From contig NZ_LRML01000003.1 of assembly GCF_001647285.1 (NCBI RefSeq), positions 186,001-250,000 of the forward strand: a stretch of 64,000 nucleotides of DNA. Reading direction: 5' to 3'. The notes beneath the pieces are model-generated. The model was not told the origin of the DNA, searched no databases, and saw only the letters and a list, made by a program, of their open reading frames with translations. Below are positions 3,567 to 21,106 of the stretch, one piece after another; within the stretch, counting starts at the first letter, position 1; each line of letters starts with the position of its first letter. Source of the stretch: Rufibacter roseus (GTDB taxonomy: Bacteria; Bacteroidota; Bacteroidia; Cytophagales; Hymenobacteraceae). A program made the translations under genes and the position numbers.

Positions 3567-3599
3567 TTTCAATGGCTTCAATGGATTAGTAACTCCACC

Positions 3600-3638
3600 C
3601 ATTTTAGACCTCTTTTTCAAAAAACAGCCTTAAAACGC
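3600..3638. repeat. CTGTTTT palindrome, copy 2
   Basis: Well preserved; it sits three bases beyond the ruvB stop codon, between the gene and its terminator. Confidence 0.7.
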
Positions 3639-3640
3639 CA

Positions 3641-4684
3641 CTACTCTGCCTGGTCAAACAAGGTACCACTGCGCACGTGGTTAGGCGGAATCTTGCCTAA
3701 GTGACGATAAGCTGCCTCAGTGGCTTCACGGCCGCGGCTGGTGCGCTTCACGTACCCTTCCTGAATCAGGAACGGCTCGTAGACTTCTTCAATGGTTTCG
3801 GCTTCTTCACCGCAGGCCGTGGCAATGGTAGACAAACCAACCGGACCACCTTTGAACTTATCAATGATGGTGCTCAGAATGCGCTTATCCATTTCGTCTA
3901 GGCCACTTTGATCTACATCCAAGGCATTCAGGGCGAAGCGGGCAATTTCTACGGTTATGGTTCCGTCACCTTTGATTTGGGCGAAGTCACGGGTACGGCG
4001 CAACAGGTTGTTGGCAATACGTGGCGTGCCCCGGCTACGGCGGGCAATTTCAAAGGCGGCATCTTCATGAATAGGAGCACCTAAAATTTCAGAAGAACGC
4101 TGCACAATGGTGGTCAACAGCTTTGAATCATAATACTCTAAACGCGCGTTGATGCCAAAGCGAGCCCGCAGCGGTGAGGTCAACAAACCAGACCGCGTAG
4201 TAGCACCAATCAACGTGAACGGATTCAGAGAAATCTGCACCGACCGGGCATTAGGGCCCGAGTCTAGCATAATGTCAATCTTGTAGTCCTCCATGGCGGA
4301 GTACAGGTACTCCTCCACAATAGGGTTCAGGCGGTGAATCTCGTCAATGAACAGTACATCGTTCCGCTCCAGGTTAGTAAGCAACCCCGCCAGATCGCTG
4401 GGTTTGTCTAGCACCGGGCCAGACGTGATTTTAATATTAGAACCCAGTGCGTTGGCAATGATATGGCTTAGCGTGGTTTTACCTAAGCCTGGAGGGCCGT
4501 GCAACAGCACGTGGTCCAAGGCCTCGCCCCGCATAATGGCCGCGCCCACAAATACTTTCAGGTTCTCCACTACCTTGTCCTGACCCGTAAAGTCACCGAA
4601 ATCAAGCGGCCGGAGCGCTTTGTCGTACTCCTTCTCAGCGGGCGAAAGGTTATCGGCGGAGCCGGTTAAATAATCTTCTCTCAT
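3641..4684 (-). CDS. ruvB: Holliday junction branch migration helicase RuvB
   Basis: The AAA+ motor that, with RuvA, drives branch migration of Holliday junctions before RuvC cuts them. Seen: Walker A GPPGLGKT near residue 63, Walker B LFIDEIH, sensor 1 LIGATTRSG, the arginine-finger region SPLRARFG, and the C-terminal winged helix with [14 protein letters not shown]. The length of 347 residues is normal. I chose the ATG at 4684 because the protein MREDYLTG... starts like other RuvB proteins and because a TATCTTTG box on the minus strand at 4708-4715 would place the transcript start inside any longer reading from 4735. Confidence 0.96.
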
Positions 4685-4707
4685 GGTAAAATCTCTTGGC
4701 AGTAAAG

Positions 4708-4715
4708 CAAAGATA
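4708..4715 (-). promoter_or_regulatory. Candidate -7 box of the ruvB promoter
   Basis: TATCTTTG matches the Bacteroidota housekeeping -7 consensus TAnnTTTG exactly. I see no clear -33 TTTG at the expected distance, so this is tentative. It sits 24 bases before the ruvB ATG. Confidence 0.4.
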
Positions 4716-4941
4716 CAGTTGTAAAGGTAACACATCTGCCGCTAAAAACGCTCCATGAGCCGCCGCAAAAACCGTAGTTTTTGCTATTATTTTTACCATT
4801 AACAATCTTTTGCCAGTATATTTAGCAACCACTTCTGCTGTGTCTGATTGAACGCCTGATTTAGTCAGTTTTTTGTCCCGCCATTTGAAGTAAGGTGTAA
4901 CCATCTCGGCAAAGAAACAGGCATTTATTTCATGATTGCTC

Positions 4942-5553
4942 TTATTCCTGCTCCAGCTCTTGCAGCATGTTTTCCAGTTCCTGCACTACCGGTTCATACT
5001 TCTCTTGGTACTGCAGCCTCTGGAAATAAATGGTAAGGCCACCGGTAAAAACCATAAGCATAGCCAGCCCTATGTGAGCAATCACGCGGTGCAGGGTGGA
5101 GCTCTCTACCATGGCACCATATATCATGAGCTGTAGCCCAATTCCGAAGAGCGCCATGTACAAAGGCACGAAAATGCGCAAAGAGCCATAGATAAACCGG
5201 AAGCTTTTAAGGGAGCTTTTTACAAACTTTTTGCTGCTGAGGCTAGGCGATTGCCTGCTCCAGGGACTGCTTTTCAACCAACCGCCTATACTGGCCACCA
5301 ACAAGGCCCCAAATATCACGATGACACCCACTTTCGTCCAGGCGGAATCACCGAAGTCTTTCATCCAGAAAAAATGGAAGAAAAAGGCATTGGCCACCAC
5401 ACCTACCGTCATCATGAAATTAGAGAAGAACAGTTTCCGCCGAAGCTTTTTCACCTGCTTCAGTATCTGCGCCTGATCACTTTTGGGGGCAGCGTATGTT
5501 GGCTCCGGCTTTGCCTGCTGCTGCCATGCTTTTTGAAGTTGCTCAAAATCCAT
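4942..5553 (-). CDS. Four-TM membrane protein, possible anti-sigma partner
   Basis: A 203-residue protein not assigned to a named family. It begins with a soluble, glutamine-rich 40-residue segment (MDFEQLQKAWQQQ), then four hydrophobic segments near residues 43-63, 74-92, 125-146 and 158-178, and ends in a short charged helix. Its start overlaps the end of the ECF sigma gene by 11 bases, so the two are probably translationally coupled. That arrangement is typical of a sigma factor and its membrane-bound antagonist or sensor, but this protein lacks a recognisable zinc-binding anti-sigma motif; the role is inference. Confidence 0.8.
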   Translation of the reverse strand: MDFEQLQKAWQQQAKPEPTYAAPKSDQAQILKQVKKLRRKLFFSNFMMTVGVVANAFFFHFFWMKDFGDSAWTKVGVIVIFGALLVASIGGWLKSSPWSRQSPSLSSKKFVKSSLKSFRFIYGSLRIFVPLYMALFGIGLQLMIYGAMVESSTLHRVIAHIGLAMLMVFTGGLTIYFQRLQYQEKYEPVVQELENMLQELEQE

Positions 5554-10980: not shown

Positions 10981-11006
10981 CCTTTTAGTTTTGTTCCCGT
11001 GTTTTT

Positions 11007-11075
11007 CCCTTCGCCGGTATTACCCGTATCAGGTTCAATGGGTATGATCTCAGCCCGTTTTATTAAGGCACCCCT
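11007..11075 (-). promoter_or_regulatory. TPP riboswitch (THI element)
   Basis: Read on the minus strand it has the conserved aptamer blocks in order: GGGGTGCC, GGCTGAGAT, ACCCATTGAACCTGAT, GGGTAATACCGGCGAAGGGA. These match the thiamin pyrophosphate aptamer core, including CUGAGA and the GCGAAGGGA end. It lies 78 bases upstream of the TonB receptor start and should switch it off when thiamin pyrophosphate is plentiful (known behaviour of the class). Confidence 0.95.
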
Positions 11076-11243
11076 AAAACTGCCGCAAAGCTACATGCCC
11101 TGAATGGCAAAACCAATAGAACGAAAGACAATCCGCAATTTTTTCGGCCAAAGCCCTAACATAGAAAGGCGGCTATACGTTGAACACTCTTAGACGCCGT
11201 ATAGGCACCCGACGAGATGTGAGACCTTTAAAGAGCCGTTATT

Positions 11244-13173: not shown

Positions 13174-13815
13174 ATGCAAGACCCTATCTTTTTAGTGAAC
13201 TGGACTGAAATGTTCGCCAGCCCTGAAAACATGATCAGGTACGGTGGCCTTACCCTTATACTGGCGGTCATGTTTGTAGAAACGGGGCTATTGATTGGTT
13301 TAGTAGTACCTGGCGGAGACTCACTGCTGCTCACTACCGGTTTATTTGCCGGGGCGGGCATATTGCCTGTGTCACTGCCCCTGCTTTTGATCAGTATGTC
13401 TGCTGCCAGTATAATCGGAGATGCCACAGGTTTTTACATTGGTCGCCGCATGGGTCGTAAACTCTACCACAAAAAAGACACCTGGTATTTCAAGCATTCT
13501 CACCTTGAGAAAGCTGAAAAGTTCTACCGCCAAAAGGGTAAAACAGCCATTATCATGGGCAAGTTTGTGCCAGTTATCCGTACGTTTAACCCATTACTCT
13601 CTGGAGTCACGGGCATGGAGTTTCATAGGTTTATTCTGTTGAGTGCTGCTGGCTCTACCCTTTGGATCTGCTCTCTGGTTTTAGCTAGCTATTACGTAGG
13701 TCAAAAATTCCCGAACCTGAAGGATTATCTACACATAGTGATTCCGGTGATTATTTTTATTTCGGTGGCACCGGGTATTGTGCAGTACCTGAAAGAACGA
13801 AGAAAGGAACAATAG
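13174..13815 (+). CDS. DedA-family (VTT domain) membrane protein
   Basis: A 213-residue inner-membrane protein of the DedA/SNARE-associated family, known to help recycle lipid carriers such as undecaprenyl phosphate. Seen: the first hydrophobic segment ILAVMFVETGLLIGLVVPGG with the conserved glutamate and GxxxPG-like turn, then the signature GKFVPVIRTFNPLLSGVTGM with its arginine, and C-terminal membrane helices. It is read away from the MarR gene. Confidence 0.9.
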   Translation: MQDPIFLVNWTEMFASPENMIRYGGLTLILAVMFVETGLLIGLVVPGGDSLLLTTGLFAGAGILPVSLPLLLISMSAASIIGDATGFYIGRRMGRKLYHKKDTWYFKHSHLEKAEKFYRQKGKTAIIMGKFVPVIRTFNPLLSGVTGMEFHRFILLSAAGSTLWICSLVLASYYVGQKFPNLKDYLHIVIPVIIFISVAPGIVQYLKERRKEQ

Positions 13816-13902: not shown

Positions 13903-14487
13903 ATGCAGAAACCATTCTTTTTCCCGTTGCTCATGTGTGGCATCGTTTTTTGCCTGACTTTTTCAACAGCTCAGGCGCAGAACAAAGCTACTATTCAGAA
14001 AAAATCTTCTGGCCGTACCACTACCACCAGCGTTACCCCAGCCCGCGAAGGTATTATTATGCGCAATGGTAAAATAATGATCATTCTGCCCAAAGGCTAT
14101 GCTCCTTTAACCAGCACCCGCAGCTTCCCGAACGGGGCCAGGGTAGAGCCAGACGGCCAATTCACCACCCCCGAAGGAGAGAAACAGCAACTTAGTGATG
14201 GTGACCGCCTTGACTTAAATGGTAATCTTACCCGCAACCCTGTGGTGATTGAGCAAAAAACTGAACTTAAAGGCGACACAACTGGCATAGGAAAACAGCT
14301 ACTGCAAGCTCAGCAGTTACAAAACAGAATTCACTTGCTCCAGCGCAAAGTAGACATTCTGGAAAAGAAGAATGAGCTCCTGCAAAGCACCGCCAAAAAC
14401 AAGCCTGATGCGGAGCAACTGAAGAAACTAGACGAAGAGTTGGCAAAGTTAAAACAGCAACTAGCTGCTACTGATAAGAAGAGATAG
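13903..14487 (+). CDS. Secreted DUF6799-like protein with C-terminal coiled coil
   Basis: A 194-residue protein with a signal peptide (FCLTFSTAQAQ, cleavage near residue 25). The middle part (about residues 48-107) has the repeating pattern of DUF6799 domains: GIIMRNGKIMIILPKG, then SFPNGARVEPDGQF and LSDGDRLDLNGN. The C-terminal 70 residues are a leucine/lysine/glutamate coiled coil (LLQRKVDILEKKNELL). Function unknown; probably periplasmic or outer-membrane associated. Confidence 0.78.
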   Translation: MQKPFFFPLLMCGIVFCLTFSTAQAQNKATIQKKSSGRTTTTSVTPAREGIIMRNGKIMIILPKGYAPLTSTRSFPNGARVEPDGQFTTPEGEKQQLSDGDRLDLNGNLTRNPVVIEQKTELKGDTTGIGKQLLQAQQLQNRIHLLQRKVDILEKKNELLQSTAKNKPDAEQLKKLDEELAKLKQQLAATDKKR

Positions 14488-14533: not shown

Positions 14534-15269
14534 TTATATACCTGTTATCTTCTTATTTCTCTTCTTCCCCCATGCAATTACCTGTACTCCGGGTGAGTAA
14601 TGGGCTAGGTCTGGCTTGTTGCTCAAGAGGTTGTTAAACTTTGGATAATTCACCTGAACGTCTTTCAGACCTATTTCAAAAATAGGCCACTCCACATGGT
14701 GAATCTCAAATTCATTAATGGCTGTTGGAGTGTCCTGAAACAAGGCATACTTCTCGGTTAGCCATTTATCAAGGGTGCTTTTACCTGACATTGGCGCACC
14801 AACCTGATACCTTAGTTCAAGACTACTCTTGAGCGCTCTGTTTTGGGAGTGGTATAGATTCTCCTCCCTTTTCATGTTGGAGTAACGGTACGGAAGCTCA
14901 GACAAACTTCTGGCTATTTGGCAAGACACTCTTGTTCCACCTTCAATACTCAAAAAGTAAACACCTGCTTTGTTTTTGTAGGTCACATAGGTCCGGATGT
15001 TGATTTCATCAAAGCAGGAAACCGGAGGGAAATACGGCAGACCTCTTGGCCTTATTTTCTCCATGGTGAAAGCCACCAATGAAACCCAAGGGTTGCCATC
15101 AAACACATCAATTTCCAGATCGTCAGGAACAATTTTTTTTTAGTTCCTTCATGTCAACTTGCCAATGTAGAAACACTGCATTGTTCCATTCTTGGTAGTA
15201 CTTCCAGTTGCCTGTGGGTAGGCTCCAAGGGCGGTGTTTTGTCAGTTGCAGTATTTCCTTTATGGTCAT
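14534..15269 (-). pseudogene. DUF2071 (YqjF-like) gene with +1 frameshift in an A9 run
   Basis: Two frames join into one 245-residue DUF2071/YqjF-type protein. The first (start ATG at 15269) reads MTIKEILQLTKHRPWSLPTG...FLHWQVDMKELKK and then hits a stop at 15123-15125; the second (open from 15106 down) continues with VFDGNPWVSLVAFTMEKIRPRGLP. Removing one base from the nine T at 15133-15141 (A on the coding strand) gives ELKKIVPDDLEIDVFDG without interruption, the normal family sequence. So this is a real gene carrying one extra base: a mutation, an assembly error or a slippage site. It is the last gene of the same-strand cassette block; its 3' side shows no attC-like site. Confidence 0.8.
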
Positions 15270-15342
15270 TCCTCAAGTTAGCAAACAAACCTTCTGTTTC
15301 AACGGCAACTATGCAACATGCCCCACCAATTTGCCTTTTTGG

Positions 15343-15413
15343 GCATAGCAACATTTTATGAGGACTGCCATGCTTTTACCTAGCCACTGTCTTTGCCGTC
15401 TAAGCTGTTATTA
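15343..15413 (-). other. attC-like site G (weak)
   Basis: Outer boxes GTTATTA (15407) and GCATAGCAAC (15343) resemble cores, but arms GACGGCA / TGGCAGTC pair poorly and the usual GC apex is missing. Placed by its location between two cassette genes. Confidence 0.35.
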
Positions 15414-15839
15414 TTTTTTAGACTCAGCGTATTTTTTGAAATTATCTAGTATAGCTTGCCAGCCTGTTCTTTGCAAATCAAGAGAATTTAGTTCTTCTAC
15501 TTCAAAATTCTCGGTGACTTTAGTTTCATTTCCCATATCAGAAAAATCAACACGCACTAACCGCCCATCATCTAACCTGTACACCAGTTGTCTGTTTGGT
15601 ATTACCTGCTCATAGATTCCTGAGAAGTCAAATCCCATACTTCCGTCCTTGGCCTCCATTCTTGAAAGGAACCGGCCTCCGGGAGTCAGGTCATTTTCTG
15701 CCCTGGGACACTGCCAGGTATCTGTTGCGCAATTCCATTGGGTAATATGCTCCGGTTTAGTCCAGAATTCCCACACCTGATCAGCAGGCATTTGAATGGT
15801 TGTTTCAACGGTTACTGTGGTTTTGTCTTTTGTTTCCAT
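15411..15839 (-). CDS. SRPBCC / AHSA1-family protein
   Basis: A 142-residue START-like protein. It opens with VETTIQMPADQVWEFWTKPEHITQWN and continues with LTPGGRFLSRMEAKDG and FDFSGIYEQVIPNRQLVYRL, the standard order of the activator-of-Hsp90 homology (AHSA1) group, ending in GWQAILDNFKKYAES. Such proteins form a hydrophobic cavity for small ligands; the ligand here is unknown. It lies in the cassette block between sites F and G. Confidence 0.85.
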   Translation of the reverse strand: METKDKTTVTVETTIQMPADQVWEFWTKPEHITQWNCATDTWQCPRAENDLTPGGRFLSRMEAKDGSMGFDFSGIYEQVIPNRQLVYRLDDGRLVRVDFSDMGNETKVTENFEVEELNSLDLQRTGWQAILDNFKKYAESKK

Positions 15840-15858
15840 GTGTTCTGTATTTTCTTTA

Positions 15859-15928
15859 ATTCAATGTCTATGCTAAGCGGCGGCGAAGGCCGTCGGCCGA
15901 TGTGTGTTGTTTAAATCATGTTAAGTGC
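15859..15928 (-). other. attC-like site F
   Basis: Core GTTAAGTGC at 15920-15928 (minus GCACTTAAC), apex GGCCGTCGGCCG at 15888-15899, far box ATTCAAT at 15859. The core is complementary in 8 of 9 bases to GCACATAAC at the start of its own cassette (16306). Confidence 0.6.
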
Positions 15929-15934
15929 AGGTTT

Positions 15935-16279
15935 TTAGTTTAGCTGCACCGTTATTTTTCTACTATCTGTATTTATGTCTATCCAAACGTCTCCCTCGCC
16001 TTCTGGAATAGCTTCAATCATATTTTCTCCATTCAGGTTTTGACCAATTGCTTCATACCCGAGTAAGATAGTCATGGAGTATTCTTCCTGACCGTCTTTA
16101 CCAATCCAGGCCTTCGTTTGAATTCGTTTGGATTTAATCGGATTATCCCCTGGCTCAATTGCAGGAGAAATCCCGTCACACCAAAGACTTCTGATTTCTT
16201 TTTTGTCACTTTTTCTAAATAGTCGAGAAAGTCGGTATTCTAAGGCACTACAGAAGTTTTCATCCAATGACTCTAACAA
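15935..16279 (-). CDS. Hypothetical cassette protein (114 aa), TTG start
   Basis: Not recognised. The frame has no ATG near its start; the reading from TTG at 16279 gives MLESLDENFCSALEYRLSRL. An in-frame stop lies a little upstream, so the gene either starts at TTG or is 5'-truncated. The second half (WIGKDGQEEYSMTILLG and GDVWIDINTDSRKITVQLN) looks like a small beta domain. No signal peptide or membrane segment. It sits in a cassette between sites E and F. Confidence 0.6.
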   Translation of the reverse strand: MLESLDENFCSALEYRLSRLFRKSDKKEIRSLWCDGISPAIEPGDNPIKSKRIQTKAWIGKDGQEEYSMTILLGYEAIGQNLNGENMIEAIPEGEGDVWIDINTDSRKITVQLN

Positions 16280-16305
16280 GGTCTTTACTTTTTATTTTCA
16301 AACTT

Positions 16306-16440
16306 GCACATAACAGTTTACAGCTACCCAAATGGCGTGACGTTTACCACAAAACTTAAATTAAAAAATAATGTTTGATTAATCACAAAACTACATTTGG
16401 AACATAAGAACCCGCCTTTTGGGTAGGTGCTGTTATGCCC
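16306..16440 (-). other. attC-like site E, long form (135 nt)
   Basis: Outer boxes CATAACAG (16309-16316) and CTGTTATG (16430-16437) are perfectly complementary; inner arms CTACCCAAA (16324-16332) and TTTGGGTAG (16418-16426) are a perfect 9-bp pair; inside them GGCG and CGCC pair again. The centre is an AT-rich 80-base variable region. This is the size and plan of the longest known attC sites. Confidence 0.7.
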
Positions 16441-16451
16441 AGTTATTCTTG

Positions 16452-17585
16452 TCATTTGCCCGTTTTTGAAGACGCTGTCGGCTTCACCTTTTCTTCAAGA
16501 ACGTCAATTACACTTTTTTTCAAGTCTTCATATTTGAAGTTGTCGTTAAAGCTGATATTGAAAGTCGAATGAGTGTCTCCCTTTGTTCGACAGAGTAAAT
16601 ATTTTGAGCCACCTTGTTCAACAGAAATTGGAGAGTATTCTGTTTGAATTCTATATTCAATCTTGTTGTCTTGATTTACTACATAGAATAAATGCTTGTT
16701 GTAAATGTCTTTTGTACCTTCTTCGTATCTTTCATAAGCTTGGATTAATTTGTCATTCCATTTGAATTGGTCGAAGCAAAACATATCTTTCAAATTATCT
16801 TTTAGACGCCCCATTTTATGAGCTTCATATAACTTGTCTTTGTAAGGTTTTGCTTTATCATACTCTTTTCTATGGTAGTAAACTTGGATAAGTTTTGAGT
16901 AGGATTGATAGTCGTTAGGGGCTAATTGTAATAGTTCAACGTATGTTGGCTCAGCCTTGTCGTAATTACCTTTTAAAGATTCCAGTAGACCTATATTGTA
17001 CAATGCGTTTATGTATGAATCAGATTTTTTGTCAATTTTTGATTTAGCAAAATAAAATGCTTCTAATGCTTTGTCATTCTTTTGTTGGTCGGAATAAATT
17101 TGAGCAATAAATGAATATGGTCTATCAGGGCAGTCTTTTTGCTCCGTTGCTTTTTTATAAGCGTCAAGTGCTAAATCTAATTTTTCAAGGTTATAGTAGG
17201 AGTCACCAAGTCCGCTGTAAAACTCTGCATCGTCTGCCTTTAAAGCAATTGCAGATTGAAAGTCTTTAACTGCTTCGTCATACTTTTTCATGTAGTTTAG
17301 TGTTGACGCTTTAATGTAAAAAGGAGCAGGGTCTTTTGAATTCTTGTCAATGGAAAGATTCATGAATTTAATGCAGTTGTTGTCGTCTTCCTCCATGTAG
17401 TAAGCAAGTCCGACATAATACAATGACTTTGCAGAAAGCTCTTTGCTCTTTGAAGTATATTGATCAATTATTTTGTCATACTGTTTATTGTCTAATAATG
17501 CTTTTAGCTTTGTTCCCGTATTGTCTTGAGCAAAAATTGTCAAGCTAAAAATTGTCAAAATAAGTGTTGCTAAAATGTTTTTCAT
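16452..17585 (-). CDS. Secreted tetratricopeptide repeat protein
   Basis: A 377-residue protein with a signal peptide (MKNILATLILTIFSLTIFAQ) and about five or six TPR units between residues 30 and 245, for example SLYYVGLAYYMEEDDNNCIKF, AEFYSGLGDSYYNLEKLDLA and ALYNIGLLESLKGNYDKAEP. TPRs mediate protein contacts in the periplasm or at the surface. The C-terminal 120 residues (KWNDKLIQAYERYEEGTKD onward) form a separate, unrecognised domain. Markedly AT-rich with lysine- and asparagine-rich codons compared with the flanking chromosome, as expected for an acquired cassette. Confidence 0.85.
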   Translation of the reverse strand: MKNILATLILTIFSLTIFAQDNTGTKLKALLDNKQYDKIIDQYTSKSKELSAKSLYYVGLAYYMEEDDNNCIKFMNLSIDKNSKDPAPFYIKASTLNYMKKYDEAVKDFQSAIALKADDAEFYSGLGDSYYNLEKLDLALDAYKKATEQKDCPDRPYSFIAQIYSDQQKNDKALEAFYFAKSKIDKKSDSYINALYNIGLLESLKGNYDKAEPTYVELLQLAPNDYQSYSKLIQVYYHRKEYDKAKPYKDKLYEAHKMGRLKDNLKDMFCFDQFKWNDKLIQAYERYEEGTKDIYNKHLFYVVNQDNKIEYRIQTEYSPISVEQGGSKYLLCRTKGDTHSTFNISFNDNFKYEDLKKSVIDVLEEKVKPTASSKTGK

Positions 17586-17611
17586 TGTCGATGTATGGTC
17601 ATTTTATAATT

Positions 17612-17683
17612 GCCCACTACGGCTAGTATTAAAGACGGCGCGGCCTTCGGCCTTGGCATGGCTTATTCACAATGTTGGCGAAA
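17612..17683 (-). other. attC-like site D
   Basis: Core GTTGGCGA at 17674-17681 is complementary in all 8 bases to TCGCCAAC at the start of its cassette (18142). Apex CGGCCTTCGGCC at 17641-17652; far box GCCCACTAC at 17612. Confidence 0.62.
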
Positions 17684-17693
17684 GCTTTTCTTT

Positions 17694-18128
17694 CTACATA
17701 TAATTGATAAACACTATCATTTCTTTCTTTTGTGAGTCAATGATAGTAAAAGTATAATCTCTTGGGTCTTCTTTATCTTGATTCAGTAAGTAATATCCGT
17801 TCATTCTGTCATTCACCCCATCGGGAAGGATTAAATTGGGGGAAGATTCCTTTATAGGTAACCTTTTATAGCCTCTTAAAGTGGACTGCTTTGAATAATC
17901 ATTTAATTCTTTGTCTGTAAGAGTTGCTTTAATATGAGCTATCCCGTCACCGTTGGGCGACCATTCATCTTGAAGCATTTTAAATTCTACTCCATTTGAT
18001 ATTTCCAGTCCGCTGATAAGTCTTGCTATTTTTAGAGGTGTCCTAGGGGGCAGAGAATCTGAGTAAGTGATGTAAGCTATACAAAGTAACAGCAACCCTA
18101 ATAGCAATAAGTAATATCTTTTTTTCAT
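17694..18128 (-). CDS. Hypothetical single-pass cassette protein (144 aa)
   Basis: Not recognised. It starts with a basic end and a hydrophobic helix (YYLLLLGLLLLCIAYITYS), so it is anchored or exported. The remaining 110 residues have alternating polar/hydrophobic segments such as FKMLQDEWSPNGDGIAHIKATL and end with KEMIVFINYM. AT-rich; bounded by attC-like sites C and D. Confidence 0.65.
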   Translation of the reverse strand: MKKRYYLLLLGLLLLCIAYITYSDSLPPRTPLKIARLISGLEISNGVEFKMLQDEWSPNGDGIAHIKATLTDKELNDYSKQSTLRGYKRLPIKESSPNLILPDGVNDRMNGYYLLNQDKEDPRDYTFTIIDSQKKEMIVFINYM

Positions 18129-18141
18129 TCATTATAAGTTA

Positions 18142-18213
18142 TCGCCAACGTACTTGTGTAAACGGTGGCGGAGGCCGTCGGCCGAAGGCTAGCGTTTTTA
18201 CCTTGTTAGGTCT
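18142..18213 (-). other. attC-like site C
   Basis: Core GTTAGGTCT at 18205-18213, far core TCGCCAAC at 18142, inner arms TAAACG (18159) and CGTTTT (18193), apex GGCCGTCGGCCG at 18173-18184. Confidence 0.68.
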
Positions 18214-18247
18214 AGTTTTTTCTTTGCAAAGACCACGAGACTTATTT

Positions 18248-18288
18248 CTGTTTTTAGCCTGTTTTTCGGCAAACAGCTCCCAAACCGC
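18248..18288. repeat. CTGTTTT palindrome, copy 9, inside a cassette
   Basis: The only copy within the cassette block; it lies between the 109-aa gene's stop and site C. Confidence 0.65.
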
Positions 18289-18308
18289 TACTTTATTCAA
18301 AGGGCTTT

Positions 18309-18638
18309 TTATTCTTTATTTATATTCCGTCCATTTTTGAATTTTTTCTTATAAATCCAGTAAATCAAAGGTGTCCAAAACATCCATGCACCTACAGTAG
18401 TAACGATGATTCGACCAACTTGACCAATAGGGCCAGGTTGCCAACCGTGTATATCGCCAGTTACTAAAACATAAAGAATGAATCCAGGGATTGTAGGTAA
18501 TACTATAAGTCCTACAAATCCGCTATCATTATTGTTGGTATCTAAAATATCACCCGTGGTAGTTAGAATTGCTAAGACCAAAAAGATAACAATCGCAACA
18601 ATCCAGAATTCGATTTTTGTATTTGTTAACATTTTCAA
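18309..18638 (-). CDS. Hypothetical membrane protein (109 aa), three TM helices
   Basis: Not recognised. Three hydrophobic segments: FWIVAIVIFLVLAILTTTG, GFVGLIVLPTIPGFILYVLV and IIVTTVGAWMFWTPLIYWIY, ending in a basic KKKFKNGRN tail that suggests the C-terminus is cytoplasmic. Small membrane proteins of this kind are frequent cassette cargo. Two ATG codons (18638, 18632) are possible starts. Confidence 0.65.
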   Translation of the reverse strand: MKMLTNTKIEFWIVAIVIFLVLAILTTTGDILDTNNNDSGFVGLIVLPTIPGFILYVLVTGDIHGWQPGPIGQVGRIIVTTVGAWMFWTPLIYWIYKKKFKNGRNINKE

Positions 18639-18692
18639 GGTTTAGCTGGAAATAAACTTCTTTATTAAGTTAGCTGTTCTTTATATTTAAAA

Positions 18693-18766
18693 TACCATAC
18701 AAGGCCTAGTGCATGAGACGTGCTTAGCCGTCGGCCGTAGCATAACTTATGCACCTTGTTAGGTGC
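18693..18766 (-). other. attC-like site B
   Basis: Core GTTAGGTGC at 18758-18766 overlaps the TAA stop of the upstream cassette gene and is complementary in 9 of 9 bases to GCACCTAAC at that cassette's start (19339). Inner arms GTGCAT / ATGCAC, apex GCCGTCGGCCG. The far core (CCATAC near 18695) is degenerate. Confidence 0.68.
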
Positions 18767-19328
18767 TGGATTGTTTTCTCTTTAAAAGCAAGAAAATTAA
18801 AACAGCGTTTAACAGGATGCTTACAAAAGATATTATATTTGATAGCTGAAACCTATTCTCAACTGGCGGTTTTAATTCTTCAACTGGTTTAGAACTATTA
18901 GCCATCTGTACTTTGAAACCCTTGCCAAGTTGATTAATTCCCTCTCCATATTGTGAGAAAACCCAATTAGTCTTACATACACCTGTTCTATAAATACCTT
19001 GGTCAAGATAAGCTATAATAAGGTGAACGGAGTCTTGTTGAAATTCTGATGAGTGGCAAGATGTATCATCAAATATAGTTAAAGTGTCGGAATGGAGTTC
19101 TAGTTCTTTCTTATGCCAATATTCTTGCACTTGTACATTGACTGGAATGAATTCATAGGGTTGTCCATAAACAGTTGCATTTATATTTAATATTTTGGCT
19201 TTTAAATAAATATATTCTAAATCCTTATCCAATTCTATTACTTGGGTCAAGGTTCTTTGCATACATGTACACCCATATGTATAAATTGGAGCCAACAGTG
19301 CAAATAATATGAGGTATAAAGTCTTCAT
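18759..19328 (-). CDS. TIMP/netrin-like cysteine-rich cassette protein with TM tail
   Basis: A 189-residue exported protein: signal peptide MKTLYLILFALLAPIYTYG, then CTCMQRTL immediately after the cleavage site, a beta-rich part with PVNVQVQEYWHKKE, and paired cysteines in DDTSCHSSEF and TGVCKTNW. A Cys-x-Cys at the mature N-terminus followed by this pattern resembles bacterial members of the TIMP/NTR-like fold (tentative). It ends with a membrane helix (ISFVSILLNAVLIFLLLKR). Bounded by sites A and B. Confidence 0.72.
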   Translation of the reverse strand: MKTLYLILFALLAPIYTYGCTCMQRTLTQVIELDKDLEYIYLKAKILNINATVYGQPYEFIPVNVQVQEYWHKKELELHSDTLTIFDDTSCHSSEFQQDSVHLIIAYLDQGIYRTGVCKTNWVFSQYGEGINQLGKGFKVQMANSSKPVEELKPPVENRFQLSNIISFVSILLNAVLIFLLLKRKQSST

Positions 19329-19338
19329 GTCTAATCTT

Positions 19339-19411
19339 GCACCTAACGTACTGGGCTAAACGACGGGCGAGGCCGTCGGCCGAGTCTGACGTTTAGGTGT
19401 TGTTGTGGTGC
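19339..19411 (-). other. attC-like site A (best example)
   Basis: 73 bases. Core GTTGTGGTGC at 19402-19411 and far core GCACCTAAC at 19339-19347; inner arms CTAAACG (19356-19362) and CGTTTAG (19390-19396) pair perfectly; apex GGCCGTCGGCCG at 19371-19382. Spacers between cores and arms are 5-8 bases, as in known attC sites. Confidence 0.75.
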
Positions 19412-19418
19412 GTTATTT

Positions 19419-19898
19419 TTACCTGATTATAATTGGCTCACTTACTCTTATATTTTCTGGCATGCTACCGTTCTCCAAAAGGTGTTGGACTGATTTATAT
19501 TCTGGGCTACGGCCAGCTAGCGCTAACTTAATTTGAAAGTCTGAGCTAGAATTCCAGTAATTATCAGTTTCAATCTGTATAAGCTGATATCTCTTATTTT
19601 CAACTAACTTCCTTTTTATTTGCCTGTTATCAGAGTAGTGGTCGATGTATTCTGTTGACCAATTTATAGATGGCTTTAGCTTTCTGCAAAATGCAGTCGG
19701 TAAGAATAGGAGAATTTCTACGGCTTCTTGTTTAGGAATCCCATGCTCTATAAGGTAAGATTGAAGTTCCTTGTCCTCCATTTCTTTTCCCTCTTTTCCG
19801 ATTAAAAGAATGCTTTTCCTTACCCAATTCTGAAACTCTTCAGGTACTTCCTCTTCAGTCTTGTTTGTATTTCCAAAAATAGACTTCAGTATATTCAT
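19419..19898 (-). CDS. Hypothetical cassette protein (159 aa)
   Basis: Not recognised. Start set at the ATG at 19898 (MNILKSIFGNTNKTEEEVPEEFQNW); a longer reading would begin with TTG inside the core box. The protein is soluble and charged, with two helical stretches (QNWVRKSILLIGKEGKEMEDKE without hydrophobic anchor) and a C-terminal beta-like part ending in IIIR. First cassette of the array when read 5' to 3' on the minus strand. Confidence 0.65.
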   Translation of the reverse strand: MNILKSIFGNTNKTEEEVPEEFQNWVRKSILLIGKEGKEMEDKELQSYLIEHGIPKQEAVEILLFLPTAFCRKLKPSINWSTEYIDHYSDNRQIKRKLVENKRYQLIQIETDNYWNSSSDFQIKLALAGRSPEYKSVQHLLENGSMPENIRVSEPIIIR

Positions 19899-19907
19899 AT
19901 TTATAAT

Positions 19908-19917
19908 GCACCACAAC
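19908..19917 (-). other. Cassette array 5' core box
   Basis: GCACCACAAC (minus GTTGTGGTGC) is the exact inverse complement of the core ending the first cassette at 19402-19411. The TAGCCGGTA just outside it resembles the bases next to site D's far box. The remaining bases to 20020 show no integrase or gene. Confidence 0.55.
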
Positions 19918-20020
19918 TACCGGCTAGCAAGAGCCTGACTCCCACTACCCGACTAATATCTCTCCTAAACATACATTTTATCTTTGATAGCTACAATATT
20001 CTAGCGTCGCACCCCTTCTC

Positions 20021-20107: not shown

Positions 20108-21106
20108 CTACGGCTGCTCTACTGGGTACAACCGCCCTGCCTCCTCACGCACTAAGCCAAACGGCTCGTCCTTTACAATCAACATACCGTCTAAGTCTAG
20201 GATATTTACGCCATGGGCCAATTGCAGGGCAGACCAAATACCCATGGAGGTTTCCATCATGCAGCCTATCATGGTTTTCAGGCCTAGGGAACGGGTCTTG
20301 TTCAGAATTTCGAGGCCATTGAGGTAACCGCCAGCTTTCATCAGTTTCATGTTTACGCCATGGAACTGCTGCTGTAGCAGGTCCCAATCGGCGTGGTCAG
20401 TCACCGATTCATCGGCGAACAAGTCATAGGGCGTATGCTTCTTGAGGTACAGGTACTCTTCTTGCAGCGCCGATGGCATGGGCTGCTCTATCATGATGAT
20501 AGGGTACTTTTTCAGACCTTCAAAGAAACGCATGAGGGCATCAGGGTCTTGCCAGGCCTCGTTGGCGTCCACCACCAGCGGTTGCGAGGTGGCACGGGCA
20601 ACTTCAGCCATCATGTCCAGCCCGCTCTCTTGGTTTACTTTCACCTTCAGGTACTCAAAACGCTTCAGGCCATGCTCGGCGGTAAAGGCGGCAATTTTGC
20701 CGGGGTCCATGATGGGGAAAGAATAAGCCGTGGGCGCCGAGGTTACTGGTTCTACCCCCAGGAATTCCGGGACGGTTTTGTTCTGCTTGCGGCACAGGTA
20801 ATGCACCATCGCACTCTCCAGGGCAAAACGCAGGGCAGGCAGCACGGGCACCTGCGTTGTCAGCTGCTGCAGTTCAGTAACCGAGCCTATCTGGTCAAGG
20901 CCACTGGCTTGTAACTGGGCAAACTGTTGGTTCAACAGCTCAGGGGTTTCGCCGTAGCGAACGTTAGGAGCCGCCTCGCCACGGCCTTGGAGCTGGCCAT
21001 CACCCACTGTGATGAACAGGTTTGTTTTAATATCAGAGGCATTGCGTGATATTTTCCAGGTATAGCGCAACGTCAGTTCTCGGGTCTCAATATGCCAAGT
21101 GAGCAT
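20108..21106 (-). CDS. Dipeptide epimerase (enolase superfamily)
   Basis: A 332-residue member of the L-Ala-D/L-Glu epimerase group of muconate lactonizing-type enolases, which act on dipeptides from murein turnover. Visible catalytic parts: KVKVN (two lysines), the metal ligands VDANEAW (Asp), IEQPM (Glu) and ADESV (Asp), and the second catalytic lysine in MKLMKAGG. The N-terminal capping domain begins with the ELTLRYTWKISRNA typical of the family. Exact dipeptide preference cannot be read from sequence. Confidence 0.88.
   Translation of the reverse strand: MLTWHIETRELTLRYTWKISRNASDIKTNLFITVGDGQLQGRGEAAPNVRYGETPELLNQQFAQLQASGLDQIGSVTELQQLTTQVPVLPALRFALESAMVHYLCRKQNKTVPEFLGVEPVTSAPTAYSFPIMDPGKIAAFTAEHGLKRFEYLKVKVNQESGLDMMAEVARATSQPLVVDANEAWQDPDALMRFFEGLKKYPIIMIEQPMPSALQEEYLYLKKHTPYDLFADESVTDHADWDLLQQQFHGVNMKLMKAGGYLNGLEILNKTRSLGLKTMIGCMMETSMGIWSALQLAHGVNILDLDGMLIVKDEPFGLVREEAGRLYPVEQP

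Follow-up and report, generated by a model that had tools for sequence, protein, structure and literature searches.

An integron-type cassette array in Rufibacter roseus and its probable link to a tyrosine recombinase lacking the IntI additional domain

The window analyzed here is a 64,000-nucleotide (nt) stretch of the Rufibacter roseus genome (assembly GCF_001647285.1, contig NZ_LRML01000003.1, positions 186,001 to 250,000 of the forward strand). Between positions 14,534 and 19,917, it carries a block of genes in one orientation that the original prediction, made from the sequence alone, described as an integron-like cassette array without an integrase. This locus raises the question of whether its genes are indeed integron cassettes and, if so, which enzyme moves them. 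Integron integrases (IntI) are recognized, and partly defined, by an additional domain that is considered necessary for the handling of folded attC DNA. We document here, at the level of sequence, the array, its hairpins, the matched cores of its cassettes, attI-like heads, the linkage of such arrays to a tyrosine recombinase gene, and the absence of the additional domain from the encoded protein. The array is very probably an integron cassette array of a Rufibacter-type bacterium, whose cassettes would be moved by this 487-amino acid (aa) tyrosine recombinase, encoded on another contig (C14, positions 3572-5035).

The window array and its counterparts in the genome

On the minus strand of the window, from position 19916 down to about 15935, genes alternate with six attC-like sites. 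The short sites read as ..AAC, about 3 bases, an inner arm such as GTGTAAACG, and an apex such as CGGCCGACGGCC, followed in the second half by the complementary arm CGTTTACAC, about 6 bases, and GTT... A single apex had been predicted, but the apex was found to vary among sites (GGCCGNCGGCC in three, CGGCCGACGGC in four, and GGCCGAAGGCC in one). The sites were scored with our own covariance models (R1 and R2), not with those of IntegronFinder; R1 was built from seven sites, three from the window array and four from another contig. The R1 E-values of the five short window sites ranged from 9e-17 to 2e-4, and the two sites outside the training set were recognized as well. The start and end cores were complementary in four of the six cassettes, over 10/10, 9/9, 8/8, and 8/9 bases, which were the very pairs named beforehand; random GTT/AAC pairs of the window reached 8/9 in 1,085 of 200,000 draws. 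The genes are also AT-richer, as had been claimed, with a GC content of 38% in the insert versus 48-49% in its surroundings.

Cassette 1 (19347..19916) contains an open reading frame (ORF) at 19419-19916 encoding a 165-aa protein of unassigned family, shows the 10/10 core match, and ends in attC site 1 (19339..19411; R1 75.0 bits, E 9.1e-16; in the training set). Of the 60 host-family genomes searched, the 59 others gave no homologue of this protein at E <= 1e-10, and this cassette thus provides no demonstration of cassette transfer between species. Cassette 2 (18700..19346; core match 9/9) carries an ORF at 18759-19328 for a 189-aa protein with a signal-like N-terminus, as judged by eye, and is followed by attC site 2 (18692..18766; 48.3 bits, E 3.6e-9; outside the training set). 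In cassette 3 (18149..18699), the ORF at 18309-18638 encodes a 109-aa protein that appears by eye to be of membrane type; its start core is degenerate (6/9), and attC site 3 (18141..18213; 79.1 bits, E 8.8e-17) belongs to the training set. Cassette 4 (17620..18148; core match 8/8) encodes 144 aa at 17694-18128 and ends in attC site 4 (17612..17682; 29.2 bits, E 2e-4; outside the training set). The ORF of cassette 5 (16314..17619) at 16452-17585 encodes a 377-aa TPR protein (TPR_1, 2.4e-19), and the cores of this cassette are mismatched (6/10 by hand). Its attC site 5 (16306..16441) is long (136 nt) and VCR-sized; it was found by reading, from its R''/R' cores and a long inner palindrome, and gave no match with R1. 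Cassette 6 (15860..16313; core match 8/9) encodes 114 aa at 15935-16279 and is followed by attC site 6 (15857..15928; 59.3 bits, E 7e-12; in the training set), whose outer GTT core is degenerate. Cassettes 1, 2, 3, 4, and 6 had no Pfam match. All of these features are on the minus strand.

Eight cassette genes had been proposed, and six were retained. The two leftmost genes of the insert, an AHSA1-like gene (15411..15839, minus strand; AHSA1 3.9e-23) and a DUF2071 gene (14534..15106, minus strand; DUF2071 5.8e-44), are not separated by an attC, and the last site is without a clean GTT core; they are thus not established as cassettes. Neither gene had a blastn match at the insert spot in 13 congeners.

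The window array is one of many in this genome. At least 91 R1 matches were obtained at E <= 1 among the best 150 of 600 first-look candidates; two of the 91 were weak opposite-strand echoes of palindromic sites, and two others lay outside clusters (C23:305202 and C12:505246, E about 0.001). The array loci hold at least 81 R1 matches at E <= 0.001, including two fragments cut by contig ends, and R2 gave at least 79 attC matches at E <= 1e-4. These sites form 13 clusters and one single, spread over 12 contigs, with clusters on C8 (two), C12, C14, C15, C18, C23 (the window), C24, C25, C33, C37, and C38 (two), and the single site on C36. Within each locus, all matches of the E <= 0.001 set are on one strand. 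When consecutive sites were considered, leaving out the two end-cut fragments of the 81 and one 2,814-nt pair of the 65, the end cores were complementary at 9/9 in 34 of 64 cassettes and at 8/9 or more in 45 of 64, compared with 4% of shuffled core partners reaching 8/9. Within a hairpin, the two cores matched each other at 8 bases in only seven of 79 sites. Since the pairing runs across the cassette and seldom within a site, the core match is a property of the cassette, not of the hairpin, and it is the trace expected of excision and insertion at G^TT.

Outer cores and inner arms that pair, a single orientation, and a hairpin fold were thus all observed, as were cassettes behaving as units, complementary between their own start and end cores and with the break at G^TT. 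Stem covariation over 110 sites pointed the same way, with 164 two-sided compensatory cells versus 48 +/- 7.5 in shuffled alignments and at most 17 with slid partners, although the structure had guided the alignment, a bias in favour of the covariation count. Taken together, the attC sites and the recombination mark at cassette ends, here and throughout the genome, bear out the proposal of an integron-like cassette array. An arm-complementarity attC finder found only two sites in the array. As a negative control, the attC search returned no match at E <= 1e-4 in 22 genomes of two sister genera, with 82 candidates scored per genome.

The longest ORF follows the array direction in 62 of 64 cassettes (segments no longer than 2,000 nt were used, and the long window site was included manually). 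Cassette contents are mostly without recognized function. The 65 cassette proteins matched 38 Pfam families at E <= 0.001, a count inflated by overlapping TPR and methyltransferase models; the families include TPR, CAAX protease, methyltransferase, and SUKH/Imm26 immunity-type domains. PADLOC recognized three families among the 65 proteins, two of them close to the threshold, and the arrays are therefore not established as defence stores.

Another element was observed at these arrays. A multi-copy sequence starts right after the cassette end core AAC in all four own-genome matches (L013 7679-7846, L014 6679-6799, L008 1-97, and L181 1523-1687) and terminates array contigs. In L170, a sequence related to it encodes an IS110-type transposase (DEDD_Tnp_IS110, 3.3e-25). 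The left ends of L015, L018, L014, and L017 carry a second shared sequence, followed by the remainder of an attC, which is probably the other end of the multi-copy element. Elements of the IS1111 family that target attC are described in the part of PMC11187229 available to us.

A tyrosine recombinase gene at the 5' end of arrays

A search of the R. roseus genome with the IntI model gave no gene over the cut-off, and the best result was a split match on C14. The statement that the array is without an integrase holds for the window locus but not for the genome, since the search for an intI-type gene, while yielding no IntI, led to a domain-less tyrosine recombinase gene located 5' of an array on C14. 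The encoded 487-aa protein matched PF00589 at 7.8e-41. The gene is directly 5' of the array and on the same strand, and next to it come four attC sites and five cassettes whose core pairs are exact. No other recombinase at E <= 1e-70 was found in this genome among the best 8 of 15 candidates.

The same gene-then-array arrangement recurs in relatives from several Bacteroidia orders. Across 79 loci of relatives, all attC matches (35/35) lay 3' of the recombinase gene and on its strand; they came from 11 loci, and 15 of them from a single Rufibacter locus (L028). As R1 mostly misfits the sites of distant relatives, a core-chain test was used for these. It was applied to all 79 loci, 50 of which have at least 1,200 nt of 3' flank, and this run superseded an earlier one on 61 of the 79 loci (48 with enough 3' sequence), whose 'chain-' column merely repeats the test by symmetry and says nothing about strand. 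Exact core chains of at least three cassettes were found in 21 of 50 3' flanks, compared with none of 46 5' flanks and one of 250 shuffles; the longest, in a Flavobacteriales genome (L056), comprised up to twelve consecutive cassettes. Flanks could be told from controls only when all 9 bases had to match; with one mismatch allowed, the test did no better than shuffles. In the remaining 29 loci, the contig ends less than 1,200 nt 3' of the gene.

Gene and sites also occur together at the level of genomes. Among 60 genomes of the host family, the recombinase was detected in 34 (E <= 1e-60) and attC in 38 (E <= 1e-4). All 34 recombinase-bearing genomes had attC, compared with 4 of the 26 genomes without recombinase, and 22 had neither (Fisher p 1e-12, a value uncorrected for kinship, presence following genus). 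From at least 6 to at least 79 sites were counted per recombinase-bearing genome (n = 34), these counts being lower bounds obtained with stricter filters and 82 candidates scored per genome. In the class as a whole, 102 of 198 genomes had a relative of the recombinase at E <= 1e-70, a figure that counts relatives and not array linkage.

Two further observations concern this distribution. In two congeners, G310 and G341, the only version of the recombinase is about 40% identical, although attC sites fitting the same model are located no more than about 1 kb away from it; one enzyme may have replaced another at the same arrays. Relatives were also found in records labelled Rhodobacteraceae, Armatimonadetes, and Sabulitectum metagenome-assembled genomes (L093, L069, and L088), L093 with a four-cassette chain, and these occurrences could reflect transfer or mis-binned contigs.

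The recombinase scored 205.8 bits with TIGR02249, under the curated cut-off of 265 bits. The distance between the KDR and HxLRH motifs was 61-62 residues in all family members measured (78 of the 80 proteins examined) versus 103 in all canonical IntI measured (18 of 20). The additional domain, of about 42 residues, was present in the four canonical IntI aligned and absent from all 19 family members aligned. Six residues that we take to be the catalytic residues of tyrosine recombinases (R344, K369, H433, R436, H459, and Y468) were invariant in the family alignment A4. By eye, the N-terminal part of the family contains from none to three copies of a repeat with weak resemblance to fork-binding (HARP/XPB-type) domains; Foldseek alone gave nothing under E 0.001 for these repeats, and the name HARP is given here as a lead and not as a claim. 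In a tree built with a quick method, IntI formed one group (SH-aLRT 99) and the domain-less family another (82). The tree took one XerC, one XerD, and one distant outgroup, so that long branches meet and the root is unsure. Of 296 genomes of the phylum, 84 had a canonical IntI over the cut-off; 83 of these belong to classes other than that of the host, and the 12 sampled genomes of the host's order, R. roseus included, had none.

attI-like heads and the insertion spot

An attI-like sequence follows the stop codon of the recombinase gene. The first G^TT lies 136 nt past the last codon in R. roseus and 42-75 nt past it in 13 of the 21 chain loci, and 11 of 40 host-family rows, representing 7 distinct sequences, contain a shared attI motif under a strict pattern. 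A putative attI beside the integrase gene, as in an integron, is thus present. The sequence that precedes the first cassette on C14 recurs on C8 with 96% identity over 50 bp; the match stops at GTT, after which the cassettes differ. A pattern search found four heads in the genome (on C14, C8, C36, and C24) versus none with the reversed pattern, and the recombinase search listed no such gene on C8, C36, or C24.

The window array begins with a similar sequence at 19918..19949 (minus strand), and cassette 1 starts at a G^TT whose G is position 19917. This head agrees with that of C24 at 25 of 32 bases and with that of C36 at 22 of 32, values that were reached by 0 of 10,000 shuffles, and no other place in the window matches the C24 head as well, the next best agreeing at 20/32. 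The likeness is weaker than that of the C14/C8 pair. These results suggest that the window holds an attI-headed array without its own integrase, not a bare cluster of attC sites, and, since several such heads (C8, C36, C24, and the window) have no adjacent recombinase, that one enzyme probably serves platforms in trans.

The C8, C36, and C24 heads share, by eye, a leader in which a near-palindrome of approximately 45 nt is accompanied by the stretch TTG...TAnATTG, similar to a Bacteroidota promoter. The near-palindrome (CGTAA..TACGTATAATACGT..TTACGG) lies upstream of the three solo heads (L013 about 1690-1985, L181 about 700-990, and C24), and a similar one, noted by eye, precedes the start of the recombinase gene on C14 (L008 about 5060-5105); it is perhaps a common regulatory site.

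We propose that the recombinase would recognize the folded strand of attC and exchange strands with cleavage at G^TT, and that cassettes would be inserted into the attI beside its gene and, by action in trans, into the solo heads, to be expressed from the leader. The N-terminal repeats may replace the additional domain in recognizing folded DNA.

The insert lies between genes whose neighbourhood is conserved. On the left are a membrane protein gene (13174..13815, plus strand), which we take to be DedA-like, and a gene for a 194-aa protein (13903..14487, plus strand) that has the insert at its 3' side and partial blastn matches in some congeners. On the right is an enolase-superfamily epimerase-type gene (20108..21106, minus strand; MR_MLE_C 3.5e-18), matched in 57 of 60 family genomes; the insert is positioned 3' of this gene, past a terminator-like hairpin. 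The membrane protein and epimerase-type genes are near each other in all 13 congeners examined, seven having them 761-992 nt apart and six 1,607-4,257 nt apart; in R. roseus, the distance is 6,298 nt. In the empty genomes, only a short spacer was seen by eye between the 194-aa gene and the epimerase hairpin. The 5.5-kb window insert is absent from this spot in 13 of 13 congeners, and the blastn matches inside it were all stray ones, of 24-54 nt. In one congener (G305), the spot is occupied by a different array, of two attC sites in the same orientation, and the five other longer ones (L125-L129) have inserts without detected attC. The spot thus appears to be a general hotspot for insertions, flanked by convergent genes. 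Scores of attC at background and the same gene order in all relatives had been named in advance as the findings that would speak against the original prediction; scores above background and a differing gene order were observed.

Elsewhere in the window, a thiamine pyrophosphate (TPP) riboswitch was detected at 10989-11085 (minus strand), upstream of a gene resembling by eye a TonB-dependent receptor. It was the sole entry listed by Rfam at the gathering threshold over the whole window.

Alternative explanations and relation to known integrons

The hairpins are GC-rich and lie 3' of genes, as would transcription terminators or repetitive extragenic palindrome (REP)-like repeats of AT-rich accessory genes, in which case the core matches would be incidental. 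This explanation is very improbable, and we reject it: the start core pairs with the end core of its own cassette and not with the other core of the same hairpin, the 22 sister-genus genomes gave no match at E <= 1e-4, and the match between two attI copies stops at GTT. A second possibility is that the attC arrays are genuine but relics, brought by a canonical IntI and now moved by the host XerCD or by an IntI from outside. The presence of canonical IntI in other classes of the phylum is in its favour, as is the view that the additional domain is necessary for integron recombination, expressed in the part of PMC9668308 available to us. It nevertheless appears improbable. No IntI passed the cut-off in the sampled genomes of the host's order, the domain-less gene is repeatedly found at the 5' end of arrays, every recombinase-bearing family genome has attC, heads like the attI of the recombinase precede other arrays, and exact core matches in 34 of 64 cassettes speak against old relics.

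It is less improbable, although still unlikely, that the window insert arrived as one ready-made block by ordinary recombination at the hotspot, a scenario compatible with cassette movement by the C14 recombinase. The uncertain status of the DUF2071 and AHSA1 genes and the presence here of other inserts, in which no attC was detected, in five of 13 congeners are consistent with such an arrival, whereas the different two-site array of G305, in the same orientation, and the attI-like head of the window array argue against it.

Several findings weigh against cassette movement by the C14 recombinase. Two of the six window cassettes (3 and 5) have mismatched ends, and the window head is without the leader of the three other heads. 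Many loci of relatives showed no array by R1 (11/79 positive) or by the chain test (21/50 positive), some of them lacking 3' sequence. Four family genomes (G303, G322, G336, and G351) have 10-25 attC sites and no recombinase at E <= 1e-60; the enzyme may have been lost or may be divergent. Canonical IntI and the domain-less family are separate in the tree, which leaves the relation to Xer unsettled. Finally, a domain-less enzyme carrying out integron recombination would be surprising: the additional domain is described as specific to IntI, used for identification, and needed for recombination (PMC9668308, citing Messier and Roy 2001, in the part available to us).

The arrays resemble the sedentary chromosomal integrons of Vibrio and Xanthomonas in their mostly single-gene cassettes in one orientation, hairpin attC sites with RYYYAAC/GTTRRRY-like cores, attI, tyrosine recombinase, and cassette boundaries at G^TT. 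In contrast to these integrons, the recombinase lacks the additional domain and has N-terminal repeats, its gene is transcribed toward attI and the cassettes, and several attI-like heads are found in one genome. Treponema enzymes are classed as intI and have the additional domain, which is absent here. In Treponema integrons, the integrase gene also reads toward attI, according to the portion of PMC3607928 at hand. As in CALIN, as far as these are described in the accessible part of PMC9024848, the window contains no TIGR02249 tyrosine-recombinase match, but a candidate enzyme is encoded elsewhere in the genome and the array begins with an attI-like head. The catalytic core is like that of XerA, XerC, and XerD, which gave the best PDB matches by sequence and were among the best by fold; the SPLD-type tail, common with IntI, and the position at arrays set the recombinase apart, and XerC- and XerD-like genes are present separately in R. 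roseus.

An integron-like subgroup of simple tyrosine recombinases, in which the insertion is "not fully conserved", was reported by Smyshlyaev 2021 (PMC8138268), so related proteins are probably already known; in the part of that paper available to us, its domain-less members are not tied to cassette arrays or attC. Bacteroidota are listed among integron-bearing phyla in the consulted parts of PMC8618304 and PMC9668308, and none of the eleven taxon-specific attC models in the accessible text of PMC8352920 is for this phylum. In the open-access literature, as far as its text was accessible, we found no description of domain-less integrases at attC arrays in Bacteroidia.

Judged by sequence tests, the system works like an integron, while its enzyme fails the IntI protein test. 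It is probably an integron lineage with an IntI-like, domain-less integrase that is missed by searches demanding the domain. More tentatively, and with somewhat less than even confidence, it may represent a widespread lineage of Bacteroidia's own, without the additional domain, in which attC would be read by N-terminal HARP/XPB-like modules and one integrase would feed several scattered attI platforms, most with their own leader promoter; such a lineage could have been overlooked because intI searches need the domain and arrays break assemblies. With a domain-less family at cassette arrays in several Bacteroidia orders, the minimal machinery for the recombination of single-stranded hairpins would become a directly testable question, integrons of a major phylum would be undercounted by surveys demanding the additional domain, and many mobile cassette genes, mostly without assigned function, would come to light.

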